A DNA stretch of 64,000 nt, from assembly GCF_030915525.1 (NCBI RefSeq), contig NZ_CP133269.1:3383001-3447000 (forward strand), given 5' to 3'. This DNA comes from Neobacillus sp. PS2-9. GTDB lineage: Bacteria > Bacillota > Bacilli > Bacillales > Cytobacillaceae. The notes beneath the pieces were generated by a model. It made no database searches. It worked only from the letters and a program-made list of their open reading frames with translations, and was not told where the DNA came from. The first letter of the stretch is position 1. Every line of letters begins with the position of its first letter. This document shows positions 32,896-53,005 of this stretch, in pieces. A program made the translations under genes and the position numbers.

Positions 32896-33240
32896 GTATT
32901 CTTATAGAAATAATGACTTTGATAATAAATTGTATACCTAAAACAATGAAAGCCCTACCTCTCTTTCATCCTTACGGCTCCTTGTCCGTGCCAGTGTGAA
33001 TCAGGATTGCAAAAATCAAGTGACTATTTTATCGAGTTATTTGTTGAAACTTCAAACGTTCGTAAAAGAAATTTAAATAATAAATTGGATTAGGTTGTAG
33101 ATTTAACAAAAGAGGTTGATGCTCTAAAAGTGAGTTGAAGAAGCTGAATGTCTTTGAAGTGATTTACTTTTACTAATAATCATATTCCCAAAAAGTTAAG
33201 GATATTTTTAGAAAATACAATACATTAACTTTAATTAACC
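32896..33240. other. Intergenic region without a recognisable gene
   Basis: AT-rich DNA downstream of carD. Short open frames are interrupted and not family-like (for example one plus-strand stretch with two stops near 33085-33140). Possibly a decayed gene; nothing supported. Confidence 0.3.
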
Positions 33241-33702: not shown

Positions 33703-33987
33703 ATAATCCACCTCCATATTTGGTAACCTTCTTAAGCCTAACACATATAATAATTTTTATCAAATTTTCTATAATATCATAAATTTATTTTAAGCGTCAA
33801 CTACTTTTTCTTCAAAAATCAAAAAAAAGTAAAAACAATAGGAATCCCTGTCGTATTACCAATAAAGGGAAGGTTTATTTTCCCGCATAGATTCTGAAAC
33901 CTTAGCAGCTATTAGAATATAAACTTTCACTTTTGGAAATATAATGATGACTATTTACATCCTTCAATCGAGAATGGAGTGAGAAAA

Positions 33988-34314
33988 ATGAAAGATTTAC
34001 ATTCAATCGAAGAGGTAGACCATTTTGTAAATGATCATCAACTTAGTTTTATATATGTATTAAACCAGAGTTGAAGCGTTTGTCACGCTATACTTCCTCA
34101 GGTTGAGGAAGTTATAAAGGAGTTTAGGCAGATTCATTTTGGGATTATTGATGCAGATGAGGCAACAGAAATAGCCGGACACTTTGGGATTTTCACTGTC
34201 CCGGTTCTCCTATTGTTTGTCCACGGAAAAGAATACTTGAGAGAAGCACGAATAGTCCATCTAAATCTCTTTCAGAAGAAAATAAAAAGAATTTATGAGT
34301 CAGTGCTAAATTAA
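33988..34314 (+). CDS. Thioredoxin-like protein with in-frame TGA: candidate selenoprotein (UxxC)
   Basis: From the ATG at 33988 the frame encodes 108 codons with one TGA at codon 29 (34072-34074). Around it the product reads SFIYVLNQS-TGA-SVCHAILPQVEE, then FGIIDADEATEIAGHFGIFTVPVLLLFVHGKE. This is a thioredoxin fold: the TGA stands at the first Cys of a CxxC redox motif (x29-S-V-C32) and FTVPV carries the cis-proline. Similarity to the fold continues on both sides, with no other stop, so translation through TGA as selenocysteine is plausible. Supporting signs are a SECIS-like hairpin right after the TGA and a tRNA-Sec gene in this window which, without the inserted island, would be the next gene. 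Rival reading: a nonsense mutation of TGT/TGC or a sequencing error. A TATAAT at 33940 may be its -10 box. Confidence 0.7.
34089..34116 (+). promoter_or_regulatory. SECIS-like hairpin downstream of the TGA codon
   Basis: ACTTCCTCA (34092-34100) pairs perfectly with TGAGGAAGT (34104-34112) around a GGT loop; three more pairs (TAT/ATA) form past a one-base T bulge. The loop begins 27 bases after the TGA and starts with GG. Bacterial SECIS elements are stem-loops just inside the reading frame after UGA, with a short apical loop having G in its first positions. The fit is good, though the stem also encodes the ordinary residues Pro-Gln-Val-Glu-Glu. Confidence 0.6.
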
Positions 34315-34672
34315 AATACTGAAACTTTCACTTAAGTTGATTAACCGTAAAAATACAATTCCCCCCCAAAAAACACTTGCATATTTACGGTTAATCTCAA
34401 TTTGTTAAATTGTTTACAAAAACGATAGTTTATTATCTGTTTAAACCACATAAACCGCACAAACATCTCACACATTGAGAAGCTTTGTTTTCGCGACCGT
34501 CTCGTTGTTACAATTCTTCCATGATCCTTTACGCATACAAAAAAACTCCAAATATACTTATTTGAAGGCTCTGAACAAACACAGTTTTGGGTTCTCGGTC
34601 AACCACAGTTCAGTTCAAAATGAGCAAAAGACTGTGGAGATAGGAAGTTATGTAATTGATTGAAAATCTATT
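34315..34672. other. Intergenic region with two inverted repeats, left of the island
   Basis: No gene supported. GATTAACCGTAAA (34339-34351) is repeated inverted at 34384-34396 with 32 bases between. CCACAGT/ACTGTGG pair at 34603-34637. Before the island arrived this DNA lay directly downstream of the tRNA-Sec gene, so one of these may have ended that transcript or the convergent thioredoxin-like one. Confidence 0.5.
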
Positions 34673-34737
34673 TTGGCGGGACTGCGTGGGAATCGAACCC
34701 ACCAGACCTGGCACGCAGGTCTCAAGCAGTTTTGAAG
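34673..34737. repeat. Island attachment site, displaced tRNA-Sec 3' fragment
   Basis: 65 bases identical to 52908-52972: reading the minus strand they are the tRNA-Sec sequence from the anticodon loop (CTTCAAA) to the CCA end. The 5' half of the tRNA is absent here, marking this as the end of the island distal to the integrase. Not a functional tRNA. Confidence 0.92.
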
Positions 34738-35459: not shown

Positions 35460-36017
35460 TTAATTATAATCCAATTCATAACATATAATCAATTCAATAC
35501 CCGGAAAATTTTCTAAAAATTGAAATATTTCATAATCACAACTCAAACATGGTTCGAATTCCGTATACAAAGTCACTTCCCCTACCGAAAAAGGTTCTAA
35601 GATTTCAGCTAATCTTTCTAAAAGCTTAGCTTCTGAATCTCCTAACCTAGGATGGGAATAACTGCAACTTTCAATTTCCTTTGTTTTAGACACATTAATA
35701 TGTTTAAAGGCTCTTCCTCCCGGCTTCAATTCAACAAACCCATATTCATTGAGCGGATGCAAAAATTTATGTCTTGTTGAAACTTTACTATGAGCAATAA
35801 AATGCCCCGACTCCCATTTATTAGAGCCTTTTATTTTGTAAATTTTATATTCAAGGTATGCTAAGTTATGTTGCATTGTAATTTTTTTGATTTGCTTCTG
35901 ATCAGTTATTGCTTTATCGAAAATTGCCCTTTTTAAAATTATATCCCTTAAATCAAGAGCATTTTTCTTTATATCAGGTGTTTCACCATTCTTAATCTGA
36001 ATTCTCCTACTACCCAC
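35460..36017 (-). CDS. Deaminase-fold protein, BURPS668_1122-like toxin deaminase
   Basis: 185 residues. The C-terminal 70 residues show the zinc deaminase pattern: D127-S128-E129 (GDSEAKLLERLAEI) as the catalytic Glu helix and E155-P156-C157-x2-C160 (TEFEPCLSCDYEIFQF), followed by FPGIELIICY. This resembles the polymorphic-toxin deaminases that edit nucleic-acid bases or nucleotides. The N-terminus has no secretion or LXG domain, so it would act inside the producing cell, for instance during phage infection, or be a cassette remnant. A gene for a small acidic protein follows. Family assignment is from motifs by eye. Confidence 0.62.
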   Translation of the reverse strand: MGSRRIQIKNGETPDIKKNALDLRDIILKRAIFDKAITDQKQIKKITMQHNLAYLEYKIYKIKGSNKWESGHFIAHSKVSTRHKFLHPLNEYGFVELKPGGRAFKHINVSKTKEIESCSYSHPRLGDSEAKLLERLAEILEPFSVGEVTLYTEFEPCLSCDYEIFQFLENFPGIELIICYELDYN

Positions 36018-43949: not shown

Positions 43950-46706
43950 CTAAGCTCCCGTAACTTTGCGATTAATTATCCTTGAATAAAGTTCAAATAG
44001 CTTTTCCAATCGCTCTGTATCATTCTTAAATTGACGCCCAATATAAATCCTTTCCAAGGTCTCATCGTTTCGTTCATGCGCACTACGCAGGTCTTCCGGC
44101 ATAGAATCCGGATCATATAAATCAGCAATCGTTTTTGGATAATGCCGTTCCCTTGCCAAAAGGATTTCCTCTGCACACCTCGTCAGATCGATTTTGTTCT
44201 TTTCTGTTAATTTCGGAACAGGAAATGTATTCCATCCAAGTGTATTTGAATATCTAAAATCCGTCTTCAACTTCCCGCATACAGTAGCGACCCAAACCAG
44301 GTGCAAACGTGAGGCAATTAAAGCCATATTCCAGAGAGGTGCATCATATAAAGCAAAAAGCAGGTCGCTAACAATCACATTCCCGTCCAACAAATCAACT
44401 GGCAAATATGGCCTTCTTTCGGATGAAACCTTTGCTACAACGAGCGAATGCCTTTTTGCTGTCCCAGCAATCTGTACAAAACGATGTGGACGTGTGGCAA
44501 AATCACGAGTAGATTTTGCTGAACTTTCCAATCGAAAATCTCTTACTTTCGCTAGAACTGTCTTTAAATATGGGTGCTCACTCGCGAAATCAGCATCGTC
44601 ATCATCAATCCAAATGCACCATCTAGGTTTACCCTGAATCATTTGTTCTGACCCAAGGTAAAGATGAATAAACCTCTCAACCTCTGGGAACTGCTGCAAC
44701 ACTTTCTTCCTCTCGTCACCATCCAATACAAAAGCCCCTCCATCTCTCGGCATATTCCCGAAAAGCATTGGCGAAGTTCCGGAAATAGGACTACGGGCTT
44801 GATTAACCGAGTTAACACGACCAGGAACAAGGTATGCGTTTATAAAATCGACCTGTCTCTCTATGACAGATCCATTTTCCCCTAAGGTGAATAATCGCCG
44901 AATTGGCCGTGGGTTTGCTCCGATACCAACTATGACCACAGTTACCCCAGCATTATTGCTTGCTAAATTTGCCCATTTGAATGATGTGTGCGCAAAAAGA
45001 ATTTGATGACCAGTTTCAAAGATGGCAGGCCAAAGGATTGGCACCTGTAACCCTTGACAAATCGAGTTTGTAGATACAAAGGCAGAAATGGCATTAGTTC
45101 TGGCTCCATATTCCGCAGCCTTCATGAACCAGCCTGCGACATAGTCAAGGGATTTCCAGCTGATTCCCTTGCTATCGAAGATAGCTTTTAGGTCAGCTTT
45201 TTGCTCATCCGATTGCCACTTACTCCCTAAATATGGTGGGTTACCACATATATAGGTCTCTCCGCCTTCATTTTCGAAGTCGATTTCTGCTTGCTCCAAT
45301 GGCGTGTTGAAAAGATCATCGGTGTGAAATTTCACATCTGTTCCAGTCGACGGCCAGATACTCAACCAGTCCATTTGAAGGGCATTACCGCAGGTTATCC
45401 AGTTTTCAGATGAGAGCGGTAGAAATTCAGACAGAGCTAGTTGCATTCCTCGATAAAGAACATCACACTGAAACTCAGCTATAATGAGGGCTAAGCGTGC
45501 AACTTCGGCCGAAAAGTGGCGTAGTTCTATGCCACGAAAGTTGGTCAATGGTATATCACTTTTACGTCCATGTTCTCCTCGTCTTTCGTTAATGGAATTT
45601 TCAATCTCTCGCATCTGCTTGTAGGCGATAACTAGGAAGTTGCCTGATCCGCATGCGGGATCAAAAACTCGGATCCTCGACAAGCGCTTGCGCAGATTGA
45701 GTAACTTACGATGGTTGTCCCCCGCAGCTTCAAGCTGCGTTCTCAGATCATCCAGGAAAAGCGGATTGAGTACCTTCAGAATATTTGGCACGCTGGTGTA
45801 GTGCATACCGAGTGCACCACGTTCCTCGTCGTCCGCAACTGCCTGAATCATAGAGCCAAAAATGTCTGGATTTATCTTAGTCCAGTCTAGACTACCAATG
45901 TGCAGCAAATAGGAACGAGCAATCTTGCTGAACTTCGGAACATCAGCACTGCCCGAGAATAGTCCACCGTTCACGTAAGGGAATGCGTCAGCCCAGCGTG
46001 GTAATTTTGCTTTCGGGCGATTCACAATCTTCGTGTTCATGGCTCGGAAGATTTCGCTAATCACTTCATGCATGTTCGAGGCATCGCGTACGCTCATCTG
46101 TTCAATTGTCTCGGTAAACAGATCGGTCCTGCTAAAGATGCCGGTGTCATCTGCAAAAAAGCAGAAGATTAGCCTCGCCATAAAGTGGTTCATCTCGTGA
46201 CGCTTTTCTGTGCTTCCCCATTGCGGGTTATCCTTCAACAACTCAACATAGAGCCTGTTCAACCTGCTCGTTGCCTTTATGTCGAAAAAACTCTCGGGTA
46301 CATGCTTAAAGGTCGTGATTCCGGCAAGTGGCAAGAAAAAGCCAAAGTGATCTGGGAAATCCTGATAAACACATGCAACTGTCTCGCCTGACTCCAGCTC
46401 CTCTGCCTCAAAGTCTACACCGTCAGTAGCTAGGATGTAGCGTGCCTTGGACTTGGTAGTTGCCCGGCTTAATCTCAGTGATACAAGGGTCTTTGTTATT
46501 TCGCCTGGTTGGGCGACTGCGATATGGATGTTGTTGGTCTGCAATACGCCGCCGATATCGGACTTATTCGATTCACCTGAACGCAGGCGCTTGATAGTCG
46601 TCTCTTTGTTCCCGAATGCCCGCAAAAAGGCAAACGGAAACTCAGCCTTGTCAAAGGGCTGGATTGCCAAATCGGAGACAGCTGCTTCAATTTCAACTGG
46701 GTTCAT
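43950..46706 (-). CDS. MmeI-like class I DNA adenine methyltransferase with target-recognition region
   Basis: 918 residues from the ATG at 46706 (GGAGGGG upstream). N-terminal 200 residues unassigned (no clear PD-ExK), a helical spacer (HEMNHFMARLIFCFFADDTGIF), SAM motif I DPACGSGNFL near residue 350, and catalytic motif IV NPPY near 489, which means N6-adenine (or N4-cytosine) methylation. The C-terminal 400 residues should hold target recognition. First gene of the defence module; its methylation would mark self DNA. The first half is about 50% GC (31 of 60 at 45601), the last third about 37% (22 of 60 at 44521), suggesting a swapped recognition domain. Confidence 0.85.
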   Translation of the reverse strand: MNPVEIEAAVSDLAIQPFDKAEFPFAFLRAFGNKETTIKRLRSGESNKSDIGGVLQTNNIHIAVAQPGEITKTLVSLRLSRATTKSKARYILATDGVDFEAEELESGETVACVYQDFPDHFGFFLPLAGITTFKHVPESFFDIKATSRLNRLYVELLKDNPQWGSTEKRHEMNHFMARLIFCFFADDTGIFSRTDLFTETIEQMSVRDASNMHEVISEIFRAMNTKIVNRPKAKLPRWADAFPYVNGGLFSGSADVPKFSKIARSYLLHIGSLDWTKINPDIFGSMIQAVADDEERGALGMHYTSVPNILKVLNPLFLDDLRTQLEAAGDNHRKLLNLRKRLSRIRVFDPACGSGNFLVIAYKQMREIENSINERRGEHGRKSDIPLTNFRGIELRHFSAEVARLALIIAEFQCDVLYRGMQLALSEFLPLSSENWITCGNALQMDWLSIWPSTGTDVKFHTDDLFNTPLEQAEIDFENEGGETYICGNPPYLGSKWQSDEQKADLKAIFDSKGISWKSLDYVAGWFMKAAEYGARTNAISAFVSTNSICQGLQVPILWPAIFETGHQILFAHTSFKWANLASNNAGVTVVIVGIGANPRPIRRLFTLGENGSVIERQVDFINAYLVPGRVNSVNQARSPISGTSPMLFGNMPRDGGAFVLDGDERKKVLQQFPEVERFIHLYLGSEQMIQGKPRWCIWIDDDDADFASEHPYLKTVLAKVRDFRLESSAKSTRDFATRPHRFVQIAGTAKRHSLVVAKVSSERRPYLPVDLLDGNVIVSDLLFALYDAPLWNMALIASRLHLVWVATVCGKLKTDFRYSNTLGWNTFPVPKLTEKNKIDLTRCAEEILLARERHYPKTIADLYDPDSMPEDLRSAHERNDETLERIYIGRQFKNDTERLEKLFELYSRIINRKVTGA

Positions 46707-46950
46707 TAATGTCCCCTCCTGATTTAGATTCTTTAGCCACATGAGCCCTTGCTCTTTGTGACCACAATAAAAAAGTTCAAAATATGTCGATTATTTATAC
46801 CGTCTTTAGCCGGTTGATAGTTAACTAGTATGACAATGCTAGACATCTTGTCTACTACTCAAAGCAATCATATAAAGCTTAAGGATTCACAATGATAAAT
46901 ACAAAACCTATTATAACAAATAAGCCAATAGTTTTTAAAACCTTAAATAA

Positions 46951-48689: not shown

Positions 48690-48734
48690 AGCAAGAAAAT
48701 TCAGACTAACTTTGATGTGTAGGAGTGATTGTTC

Positions 48735-49325
48735 ATGTCAGTAATTATTGACGAAATTAATAGAAGATTATCTGTCATCACCGCTTTAGAAAAATATACT
48801 GATGTCAAGCTACCAAAAATTAATACAAATAAAAAGCAGTTCCAAATCCGCTGCCCTTTCCACAATGACCATACGCCTTCCTTTACAGTATATGCAGTTA
48901 CTAACTCTTGGTATTGCTGGGCGGGCTGCGGTGGTGGAAACGTCATAAATTTGGTAAGTAAAGCTCTGAATATTACTTATGAGCAGGCAAAAAGGGTCCT
49001 CATAAAAGATTTGCGCCTTGACCCAGTTAACCTTGCTCATGCTATCGATTCAGGTGAACTTAAAATACAAGGAAGCCTTAAAGAATTTTACGATAACTGC
49101 GGAAAATACGCTGACGCCTTATCCGATTTAAAACGGATTTATGAACAGGAAGCGTTAACTATTGAGGACTTGACCAGCATGGAACAAAAAGCGGATGTCT
49201 ACCATAACCTGTCCAAAATTGATTATTTTGAGCCATTAATCAGAAATGGTAGTGTCGAGGACAGGATTTATGCCATGAGAAGAATAGGAGAAATGATTAA
49301 CGATGCCAACAAACAATTTAACTAA
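48735..49325 (+). CDS. CHC2 zinc-finger, DnaG primase-type domain protein
   Basis: 196 residues. CPFHNDHTPSF and WYCWAGCGGGNVINLV form the CHC2 zinc ribbon (C-x2-H...C-x2-C) of DnaG primases, which binds template DNA. No TOPRIM catalytic domain follows, so alone it is a primase DNA-binding module. ATG 48735 follows GGAG by nine bases. Its 3' end overlaps the DUF3987 gene by 23 bases; together they probably make the island replication initiator/primase-helicase unit. Confidence 0.85.
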   Translation: MSVIIDEINRRLSVITALEKYTDVKLPKINTNKKQFQIRCPFHNDHTPSFTVYAVTNSWYCWAGCGGGNVINLVSKALNITYEQAKRVLIKDLRLDPVNLAHAIDSGELKIQGSLKEFYDNCGKYADALSDLKRIYEQEALTIEDLTSMEQKADVYHNLSKIDYFEPLIRNGSVEDRIYAMRRIGEMINDANKQFN

Positions 49326-51662: not shown

Positions 51663-52790
51663 ATGGCTGGCACTGGTTATCCAAAGCAGGATAAAAAAAC
51701 AGGAAAGTGGATCTTTGTGATAGAAACCGGGAAAGATTCCAATGGGAAACGGACCAGAATAAAACGTTCCTTTAACACAAAAAAAGAAGCGAAGATAGCG
51801 ATGGCAGAAGCTTTACTTGAGGTAAAAAATAACAGAAATAAACCAAACAATGTCCAGATTTCGGTAGGAGAATACCTATCCTATTGGCTTGAAAACTACG
51901 CAAAAACCAACACGAAACCTAAGACCTATGCCGAATACGAGAAAATTGTCAGAGCCCATCTAAAGCCGTCTCTAGGGCACATAGAGCTCCAAGAATTGAA
52001 AAGCACCCAGTTACAAAACTACTACAAAGAGAAATTGAACGTATTATCAGCTCAATCGGTCACCCATCATCATCGCGTTCTCTCAAAAGCCCTGAATGAT
52101 GCCATTGACTGGGAGTTCATAGAAAAAAACGTGGCTAGAGGGGCTAAACCTCCTAAGCCATCCAAACGGGAAATGAACACCTATAGTGTTGAACAGCTCA
52201 ATTTCCTGCTTAAAACAGCAAAAGAAAGAACTCCCGTGTTCTATCCGATTATGTATGCTGCTGCTCATACAGGCATGCGCAAAAGTGAGTTAATTGGCCT
52301 GACTTGGAAGAACGTTGACTTTCACACGCAAAGGCTCTATATACGGCAAACCATCACAGAAGCAAACGGTCAATATTTTTTCAATTCTATTCCTAAGAAC
52401 GAAAAGCCAAGAGGGATAAAGTTAACGGCTGAACTGGCAAAGCTACTGGGGTCACTCAAAGAAGAACATGAGAAGCAAAAGAAAATACTAGGGGATGGCT
52501 TTAATCCTCATAATTTGGTCTTTTGCAACTCTAAAGGGAACATCATGGCCCCATCTGAAATATCTAGAGCATTGAAAAGAGCCATTAAGGCAGCCAATCT
52601 ACCAGATATTCGGTTTCATGATTTACGCCATTCCCATGCAACTATCTTACTTCAAGCCAATGTTCATCCAAAAATCGTCAGCGCGCGTCTAGGACATTCC
52701 AAGATTTCGGTGACCATGGATACCTATTCACATCTGACCGATTCTATTGAAGGGATTGCGGTAGACACTTTAGACACCCTCCTGGAATAG
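51663..52790 (+). CDS. Tyrosine recombinase (phage-type integrase)
   Basis: 375 residues. N-terminal AP2-like arm-binding domain (RIKRSFNTKKEAKIAMAEALLEV in part), SAM-like core-binding domain (residues 68-165), and catalytic domain with Arg in HTGMRKSELIGLTW, HDLRHSHATILLQ (H-x2-R), LGHSKISVTMDTYSHL (His and the nucleophile Tyr). It lies 118 bases from the attachment repeat in the tRNA-Sec gene, the usual place, and should integrate and excise the island there. Confidence 0.95.
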   Translation: MAGTGYPKQDKKTGKWIFVIETGKDSNGKRTRIKRSFNTKKEAKIAMAEALLEVKNNRNKPNNVQISVGEYLSYWLENYAKTNTKPKTYAEYEKIVRAHLKPSLGHIELQELKSTQLQNYYKEKLNVLSAQSVTHHHRVLSKALNDAIDWEFIEKNVARGAKPPKPSKREMNTYSVEQLNFLLKTAKERTPVFYPIMYAAAHTGMRKSELIGLTWKNVDFHTQRLYIRQTITEANGQYFFNSIPKNEKPRGIKLTAELAKLLGSLKEEHEKQKKILGDGFNPHNLVFCNSKGNIMAPSEISRALKRAIKAANLPDIRFHDLRHSHATILLQANVHPKIVSARLGHSKISVTMDTYSHLTDSIEGIAVDTLDTLLE

Positions 52791-52907: not shown

Positions 52908-52972
52908 TTGGCGGGACTGCGTGGGAATCGAACCCACCAGACCTGGCACGCAGGTCTCAAGCAGTTTTGAAG
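52908..52972. repeat. Island attachment site within the intact tRNA-Sec gene
   Basis: 65 bases identical to 34673-34737. The identity runs from one base past the CCA end to the 5' edge of the anticodon loop, so crossover took place within the 3' half of the tRNA gene. Confidence 0.92.
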
Positions 52973-53005
52973 ACTGTGGAGGACACCAGTACCCCATTCA
53001 GCCCC
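52909..53005 (-). tRNA. selC: tRNA-Sec (anticodon UCA)
   Basis: 97 nt with encoded CCA. 5' GGGGCTGA pairs with 3' GCAGTCCC (seven pairs including one G-U; the eighth is A-G). Anticodon stem CAGT/ACTG holds loop CTTCAAA, giving anticodon TCA. The variable arm is long (AGACCTG/CAGGTCT, 7 bp). T arm GTGGG-TTCGATT-CCCAC. The D stem is extended. These are the features of selenocysteine tRNA, which reads UGA. Its 3' half comes from the integrated island. Its presence implies a Sec-decoding host; selA, selB and selD must be elsewhere. Confidence 0.93.

Follow-up and report, generated by a model that had tools for sequence, protein, structure and literature searches.

A putative selenocysteine-containing thioredoxin-like protein with an in-frame TGA in Neobacillus sp. 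PS2-9 and other Bacillales

Sec-containing thioredoxin (Trx, PF00085, UxxC) is listed as an experimentally verified selenoprotein family in Table 1 of PMC13188914 and Table 1 of PMC9312934. Two other UxxC selenoproteins, SaoT (NF040730) and the HUIPC type (NF047660), are termed thioredoxin-like in PMC13188914. For the Firmicutes/Bacillales, Table 2 of PMC1794560 gave three families and three selenoproteins in 2006. We searched the open-access literature by title and start of abstract and, among the papers listed, found none describing a Sec thioredoxin of Bacillaceae.

We analysed a 64,000-nucleotide stretch of the genome of Neobacillus sp. PS2-9, hereafter called the window, in which a gene with an in-frame TGA had been proposed from the letters alone to encode a selenoprotein. 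Like the Sec-containing thioredoxins, the encoded protein has a thioredoxin domain and would carry Sec in place of the first Cys of CxxC. The features that mark membership of this family were found here: PF00085, a UGA at the first Cys with Cys homologues, a bacterial SECIS element (bSECIS), and selA, selB, selD and tRNA-Sec. Its motif is USVC. The protein shares UxxC with SaoT and the HUIPC type; however, neither the NF040730 nor the NF047660 model is among its matches at E 0.01. It also resembles the Cys-containing, YdfQ-type proteins of Bacillales, which are full-length homologues with 44-61% identity and the motif C-S-V-C or a close variant (the name YdfQ is used by two sources, P0022 and P0049), but these have Cys for Sec, no conserved hairpin and often belong to genomes without selB. 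According to PMC9918477, a ydfQ of B. licheniformis, possibly the same orthologue, sits in a sulfane-sulfur gene cluster as a gene of unknown function. Sec-containing thioredoxin being already established, the gene of the window is an unannotated YdfQ-like branch of it (USVC).

Read directly, the frame starts with ATG at 33988, ends with TAA at 34312-34314 and contains one in-frame TGA only, followed by S-V-C32, which gives the active site USVC. Its features are the following:

33976-33979, + strand: GGAG, a likely ribosome-binding site judged from the sequence, 8 nt before the ATG
33988-34314, + strand: putative Sec-containing thioredoxin-like coding sequence, 108 residues, UxxC at 29-32
34072-34074, + strand: in-frame TGA, codon 29, read as selenocysteine from 26 TGA loci and Cys in 88/88 others
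34081-34083, + strand: codon of the resolving Cys32 of the UxxC motif, from direct reading and alignment

As the original prediction had stated, the gene is hidden from ORF calling, since the standard list (table 11) contains no ORF of at least 90 aa at 33988-34314, and the sequence is thioredoxin-like on both sides of a single TGA at codon 29: the 108-residue frame matches PF00085 (Pfam Thioredoxin) with 38.5 bits for a cut-off of 23.5. The score against the model of classical thioredoxin TrxA, TIGR01068, was 37.9 bits, under the cut-off of 96.8. Cys32 is invariant across an 18-row alignment (A2). An AlphaFold model computed from an 18-row alignment, with C substituted for Sec, had a mean pLDDT of 91.1, and in this model residue 29 directly precedes a helix formed by residues 30-44. 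When the PDB was searched with this model, the best match was a thioredoxin and so were most of the best 50; among solved structures, the closest in sequence is chain 4euy (E 9.2e-16), from a protein that is uncharacterised. The protein is therefore predicted to take the thioredoxin fold. A search of the + strand from 33750 to 34450 for a sigma-70-type promoter-like site found none.

We compared codon 29 across homologues. A protein search gave 92 matches to the thioredoxin-like protein, with Cys at position 29 in 80 and W in two (P0045 and P0082), alongside ten truncated entries that start after this position. Among the latter, P0002 is evidently the truncated database entry of the window's own gene, being 99% identical over its part. 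In DNA, 118 rows were readable at this codon and gave 30 TGA, 47 TGC and 41 TGT, which left 19 loci with TGA and 88 with Cys once duplicates were removed; 12 further loci had TGA in 11 cases and TGC in one (G275). In total, 26 distinct TGA loci stand against 88 distinct Cys loci, with Cys in 88/88 of the non-TGA loci. Hence, Cys or TGA is aligned at codon 29 in every locus read, which was the check proposed along with the prediction, and its argument that the TGA is no chance nonsense hit is borne out by the recurrence of TGA at this codon across 26 distinct loci. The database copies P0002, P0079, P0087, P0045 and P0082, which are truncated after the TGA or carry W at the Sec position, are correctable.

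Two hairpins were found downstream of the TGA:

34075-34089, + strand: small hairpin (5 bp) after the TGA and before the main stem, from the predicted fold only
34092-34112, + strand: bacterial SECIS-type hairpin, 9-bp stem and GGU apical loop, from the RNA fold, comparison and the bSECIS limits

Folding of the RNA from 34072 to 34120 gave a stem pairing 34092-34100 with 34104-34112 and a GGU loop at 34101-34103, with an energy of -16.6 kcal/mol (z -3.72; 2 of 200 shuffles were as good). The stem begins 17 nt after the TGA and the loop at base 27, the same geometry as had been described from the letters. Limits given for bacterial SECIS elements in PMC13188914 are a loop of 3-9 nt with a G within its first two positions, a stem of 4-16 bp, a spacing of 16-37 nt and an MFE of -7.5 kcal/mol or lower. 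The hairpin of the window lies within all of them (3-nt GGU loop, 9 bp, 26 nt spacing, energy as above), so that the layout, as claimed, is close to that of known bacterial SECIS elements as defined there. The energy limit is not specific, since -7.5 kcal/mol is also reached by 53 of the 88 Cys loci; the argument therefore rests on position and sequence, not on energy.

The GGT loop is present in all 26 TGA loci. The core CTTCCTCAGGT is identical in 24 of the 26 TGA loci versus none of the 88 Cys loci, and at least eight of the nine stem pairs are found in 24 of 26 versus, again, 0/88. Nine pairs are formed in 12 of the TGA loci, eight in 12, seven in one and six in one; among the 19 distinct loci of the 118-row set, ten are without at least one pair, the missing one being that adjoining the loop in six. 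When the window's own protein was recoded synonymously, 9/9 pairs were obtained in 22 of 20,000 trials. At least eight pairs were reached in 398 of 10,400 recodings and the core CTTCCTCAGGT was present in 427 of 10,400, rates that are descriptive because the TGA loci are related to one another. The hairpin is therefore not forced by the protein sequence. Across the 19 TGA loci, the modal frequency of the third position is 0.95-1.0 at codons 36, 37, 38 and 40 and 0.68 at codon 39; for the other 59 codons the mean is 0.55 and one reaches 0.95. Leu36 is CTT and Gln38 is CAG in 19/19 of these loci, whereas in those Cys loci that have the residue in question the commonest codon reaches 0.27 and 0.59, respectively.

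The genome of the window is a single contig of 5,192,194 bases, and the genes required for selenocysteine insertion were sought in it. The tRNA-Sec gene, which had been noticed in the window, was recovered both by ARAGORN and by Rfam:

52909-53005, - strand: tRNA-Sec (selC), anticodon TCA, from ARAGORN and Rfam RF01852

Its RF01852 score is 63.3 bits for a cut-off of 47, and it is the sole match above the cut-off in the genome. The original prediction had staked itself on the presence of selA, selB and selD. All three are there above their cut-offs: selB with 355.6 bits (cut-off 242.25), selA with 558 bits and selD with 397 bits. The selD gene itself has one in-frame TGA, in the context AGUGCK (L126 at 7297). 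Two further genes with one in-frame TGA each are a formate dehydrogenase alpha gene (context UHAP, L145 at 1128), which scores above the cut-off with 793 bits, and a formate dehydrogenase-like gene (context UHSS, L146 at 1046), which with 202 bits stays below it; in these two genes the TGA precedes His and the hairpins have a GGTCT loop. In view of these in-frame TGA codons, three other genes of the genome appear to use Sec.

The TGA form was found, besides the window's own, in eight of 150 relatives (G006, G022, G063, G075, G077, G078, G087 and G121). Within the genus of the window the gene is present in 3 of 61 genomes, the window's own and a split copy counted. We also sampled 397 genomes evenly across the order: 167 have a match at E 1e-14, and 16 of these contain an internal TGA, the window's own included. 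The two sets together hold 20 genomes with the TGA form, which belong to four families (f1, f2, f33 and f36) of the order and include records of Neobacillus citreus, Mesobacillus subterraneus, M. maritimus, M. persicus, M. campisalis and Cytobacillus oceanisediminis. The records that contain two of the TGA loci, L094 and L112, bear the titles Chryseobacterium sp. ISL-80 and Pseudomonas sp. ISL-84, although the loci group with the Mesobacillus and Cytobacillus rows; these records are probably mislabelled.

All 20 TGA-form genomes have selB, versus 54 of 135 genomes that have a good match without internal TGA, a class defined by that absence, the Cys codon itself being read in the 118-row codon set (Fisher p 8e-8, a descriptive value uncorrected for the relatedness of the genomes). 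The 135 comprise 133 genomes of the order sample plus G083 and G088 from the relatives; 18 weaker ones of the 151 non-TGA matching genomes lie outside this class, and 8 of these 18 have selB, which gives 62/153 if they are counted. So far, the Sec form occurs only in genomes with selB. In Mesobacillus (genus g4), about 1-2.6 kb separate the gene from selB in 9/9 matching genomes. Among the 12 TGA-form genomes tested for tRNA-Sec, of the 20, 11 have it; in the twelfth, G121, a draft of about 200 contigs, no tRNA-Sec was found at E 1e-8 and selB is present.

The gene is under purifying selection. Of the 171 pairs of 19 TGA-form loci, we considered the 15 in which synonymous change was smallest. 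Downstream of the TGA, dN was 0.00-0.29 and dS 0.29-1.35, with dN < dS in 15/15 pairs (for example, dN 0.00 and dS 0.51 for L013/L015, 0.02 and 0.44 for L097/L112, 0.08 and 0.38 for L001/L004). Before the TGA, dN < dS held in 12 of these 15 pairs, those not involving the split copy L004 of N. citreus; the L004 row has non-gene upstream residues, which inflate the upstream dN to 1.21-2.46 in its three pairs. As dN is below dS on both sides of the TGA, both sides are kept as protein.

In N. citreus (G022), the gene is in two parts near the ends of two contigs (L125 4890-5039 and L120 1-321). Next to the 5' part lies group II intron sequence (RF00029, 45.6 bits, L125 4965-5035) on the minus strand, opposite to the gene, and in the weak match of the 5' part a TAG is found where the intron sequence begins. 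A degraded gene in close relatives was one of the findings that the original prediction had set against itself, and one such relative does exist; however, its 3' part retains the TGA and all nine stem pairs, and for this reason we read the split as a later local disruption. Another deviant copy, in G403 (L138), retains the TGA and the hairpin with the resolving Cys changed to Gly (USVG), which suggests either a single-selenol active site or decay.

The single in-frame stop, the disrupted copy in N. citreus and the absence of the gene from most genomes of the genus would all fit a pseudogene, that is, an ordinary Cys thioredoxin altered by a nonsense mutation or a sequencing error. Yet the same TGA and hairpin recur in 26 distinct loci, dN is low relative to dS after the TGA and, among the matches listed with E about 4e-20 or better, the internal stops are TGA with the exception of one TAA (G275), which sits at the C-terminal end. 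A sequencing error at the TGA is very unlikely because other genomes have the same TGA and hairpin. Taken as a whole, the pseudogene reading appears largely refuted by this conservation, and we consider it highly improbable.

Two further explanations keep the gene functional and do without selenium. If the UGA were read as tryptophan or another standard amino acid, through suppression or a change of code, the W of P0045 and P0082 would be accounted for; but W is presumably what a table 4 gene call would print at this codon, and the long table 11 ORFs of the window give no hint of a changed code. The Cys homologues, the hairpin in SECIS position, the association with selB and the complete Sec machinery also speak against such decoding, to which we give hardly any credence. 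It is just as difficult to believe that internal initiation at the short downstream ORF annotated in databases yields the functional product, of 66-75 residues. Ten such truncated entries are indeed found among the 92 database matches, but the start codon of P0002 corresponds to ATA in the window, the product would be without the first 34 residues including the active site, and the stretch before the TGA is conserved, as seen from dN < dS in the 12 pairs without L004.

The gene is best read as encoding a UxxC selenoprotein in which the TGA stands for selenocysteine at the redox active site, selenium incorporation being putative. Judged from comparative sequence data, the candidate selenoprotein originally proposed is strongly supported by the conserved TGA and hairpin and by the presence of the Sec machinery. 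Very probably, the product is a small thioredoxin-fold thiol/selenol oxidoreductase (U29-S-V-C32), with Sec inserted via SECIS/SelB. In this mechanism, known from formate dehydrogenase of E. coli, SelB carrying Sec-tRNA-Sec would be recruited by the SECIS hairpin that closely follows the UGA, and selenocysteine would be inserted at the UGA, the parts needed being present in the genome. The Sec selenolate may then attack a disulfide, a persulfide or an oxidised substrate, giving a mixed selenenyl-sulfide that would be resolved by Cys32 as it is in thioredoxins.

In a tree built from all columns of the alignment, in which the upstream residues outside the gene in L004 are also included, the 25 rows of the TGA form group together in a single clade (support 100/98). 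When the 19 columns that cover the active site or code for the SECIS are removed, the tree requires two changes, and a single clade is then neither demonstrated nor rejected (p-AU 0.487). The simplest reading is a single origin, with the Sec form as one Cys-to-Sec lineage within Bacillales. It is a tentative and rather doubtful idea that this form is Bacillales-specific, arose once by Cys-to-Sec change and acts in selenium/sulfane-sulfur handling, e.g. by reducing selenium compounds for SelD; if true, such a role would explain the link with selB in Mesobacillus and the place beside the tRNA-Sec attachment site.

With this gene, the Bacillaceae and their relatives, for which few selenoproteins had been listed, would gain a selenoprotein branch that is so far unannotated. 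The diagnostic hairpin that comes with the Sec/Cys pair could help to detect such genes and correct their annotation; 10/92 database matches are truncated. With close Cys and Sec homologues available, why Sec is used becomes testable in one protein family.

Finally, we examined the surroundings of the gene. A 65-bp exact direct repeat is present at 34673-34737 and 52908-52972 and includes the 3' end of tRNA-Sec. The following genes lie between its copies:

35460-36017, - strand: BURPS668_1122 deaminase family ORF (PF14424, 54 bits), just inside the element
43950-46742: type IIG restriction-methylation gene
48729-49325: primase-like gene
51663-52790: tyrosine recombinase

A serine recombinase-like ORF is also within this 18.2-kb stretch, the GC content of which is 41% versus 38% in the rest of the window. 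We read the stretch as an element that entered tRNA-Sec. It starts 0.36 kb from the thioredoxin gene, which would have lain about that far from tRNA-Sec before the insertion. The two genes were not seen this close in other genomes: 30 TGA-form loci (some entered twice; flanks up to about 10 kb) gave no tRNA-Sec with ARAGORN, and in 30 tRNA-Sec loci compared neither carD nor the thioredoxin gene lay at a distance of about 1.5 kb or less from the tRNA gene. In the one neighbour pair compared with G006, of the same genus, we saw no similarity. Relatives of the window's integrase were found beside tRNA-Sec in six other loci of the genus (L150, L153, L156, L161, L166 and L174), those of L153 and L156 being fragments; tRNA-Sec looks like a recurrent integration site. 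In G003 and in G019, the genome has two copies of tRNA-Sec. Upstream of the thioredoxin gene, a BsrC small RNA was detected at 32933-33019 on the + strand, with 108.8 bits.
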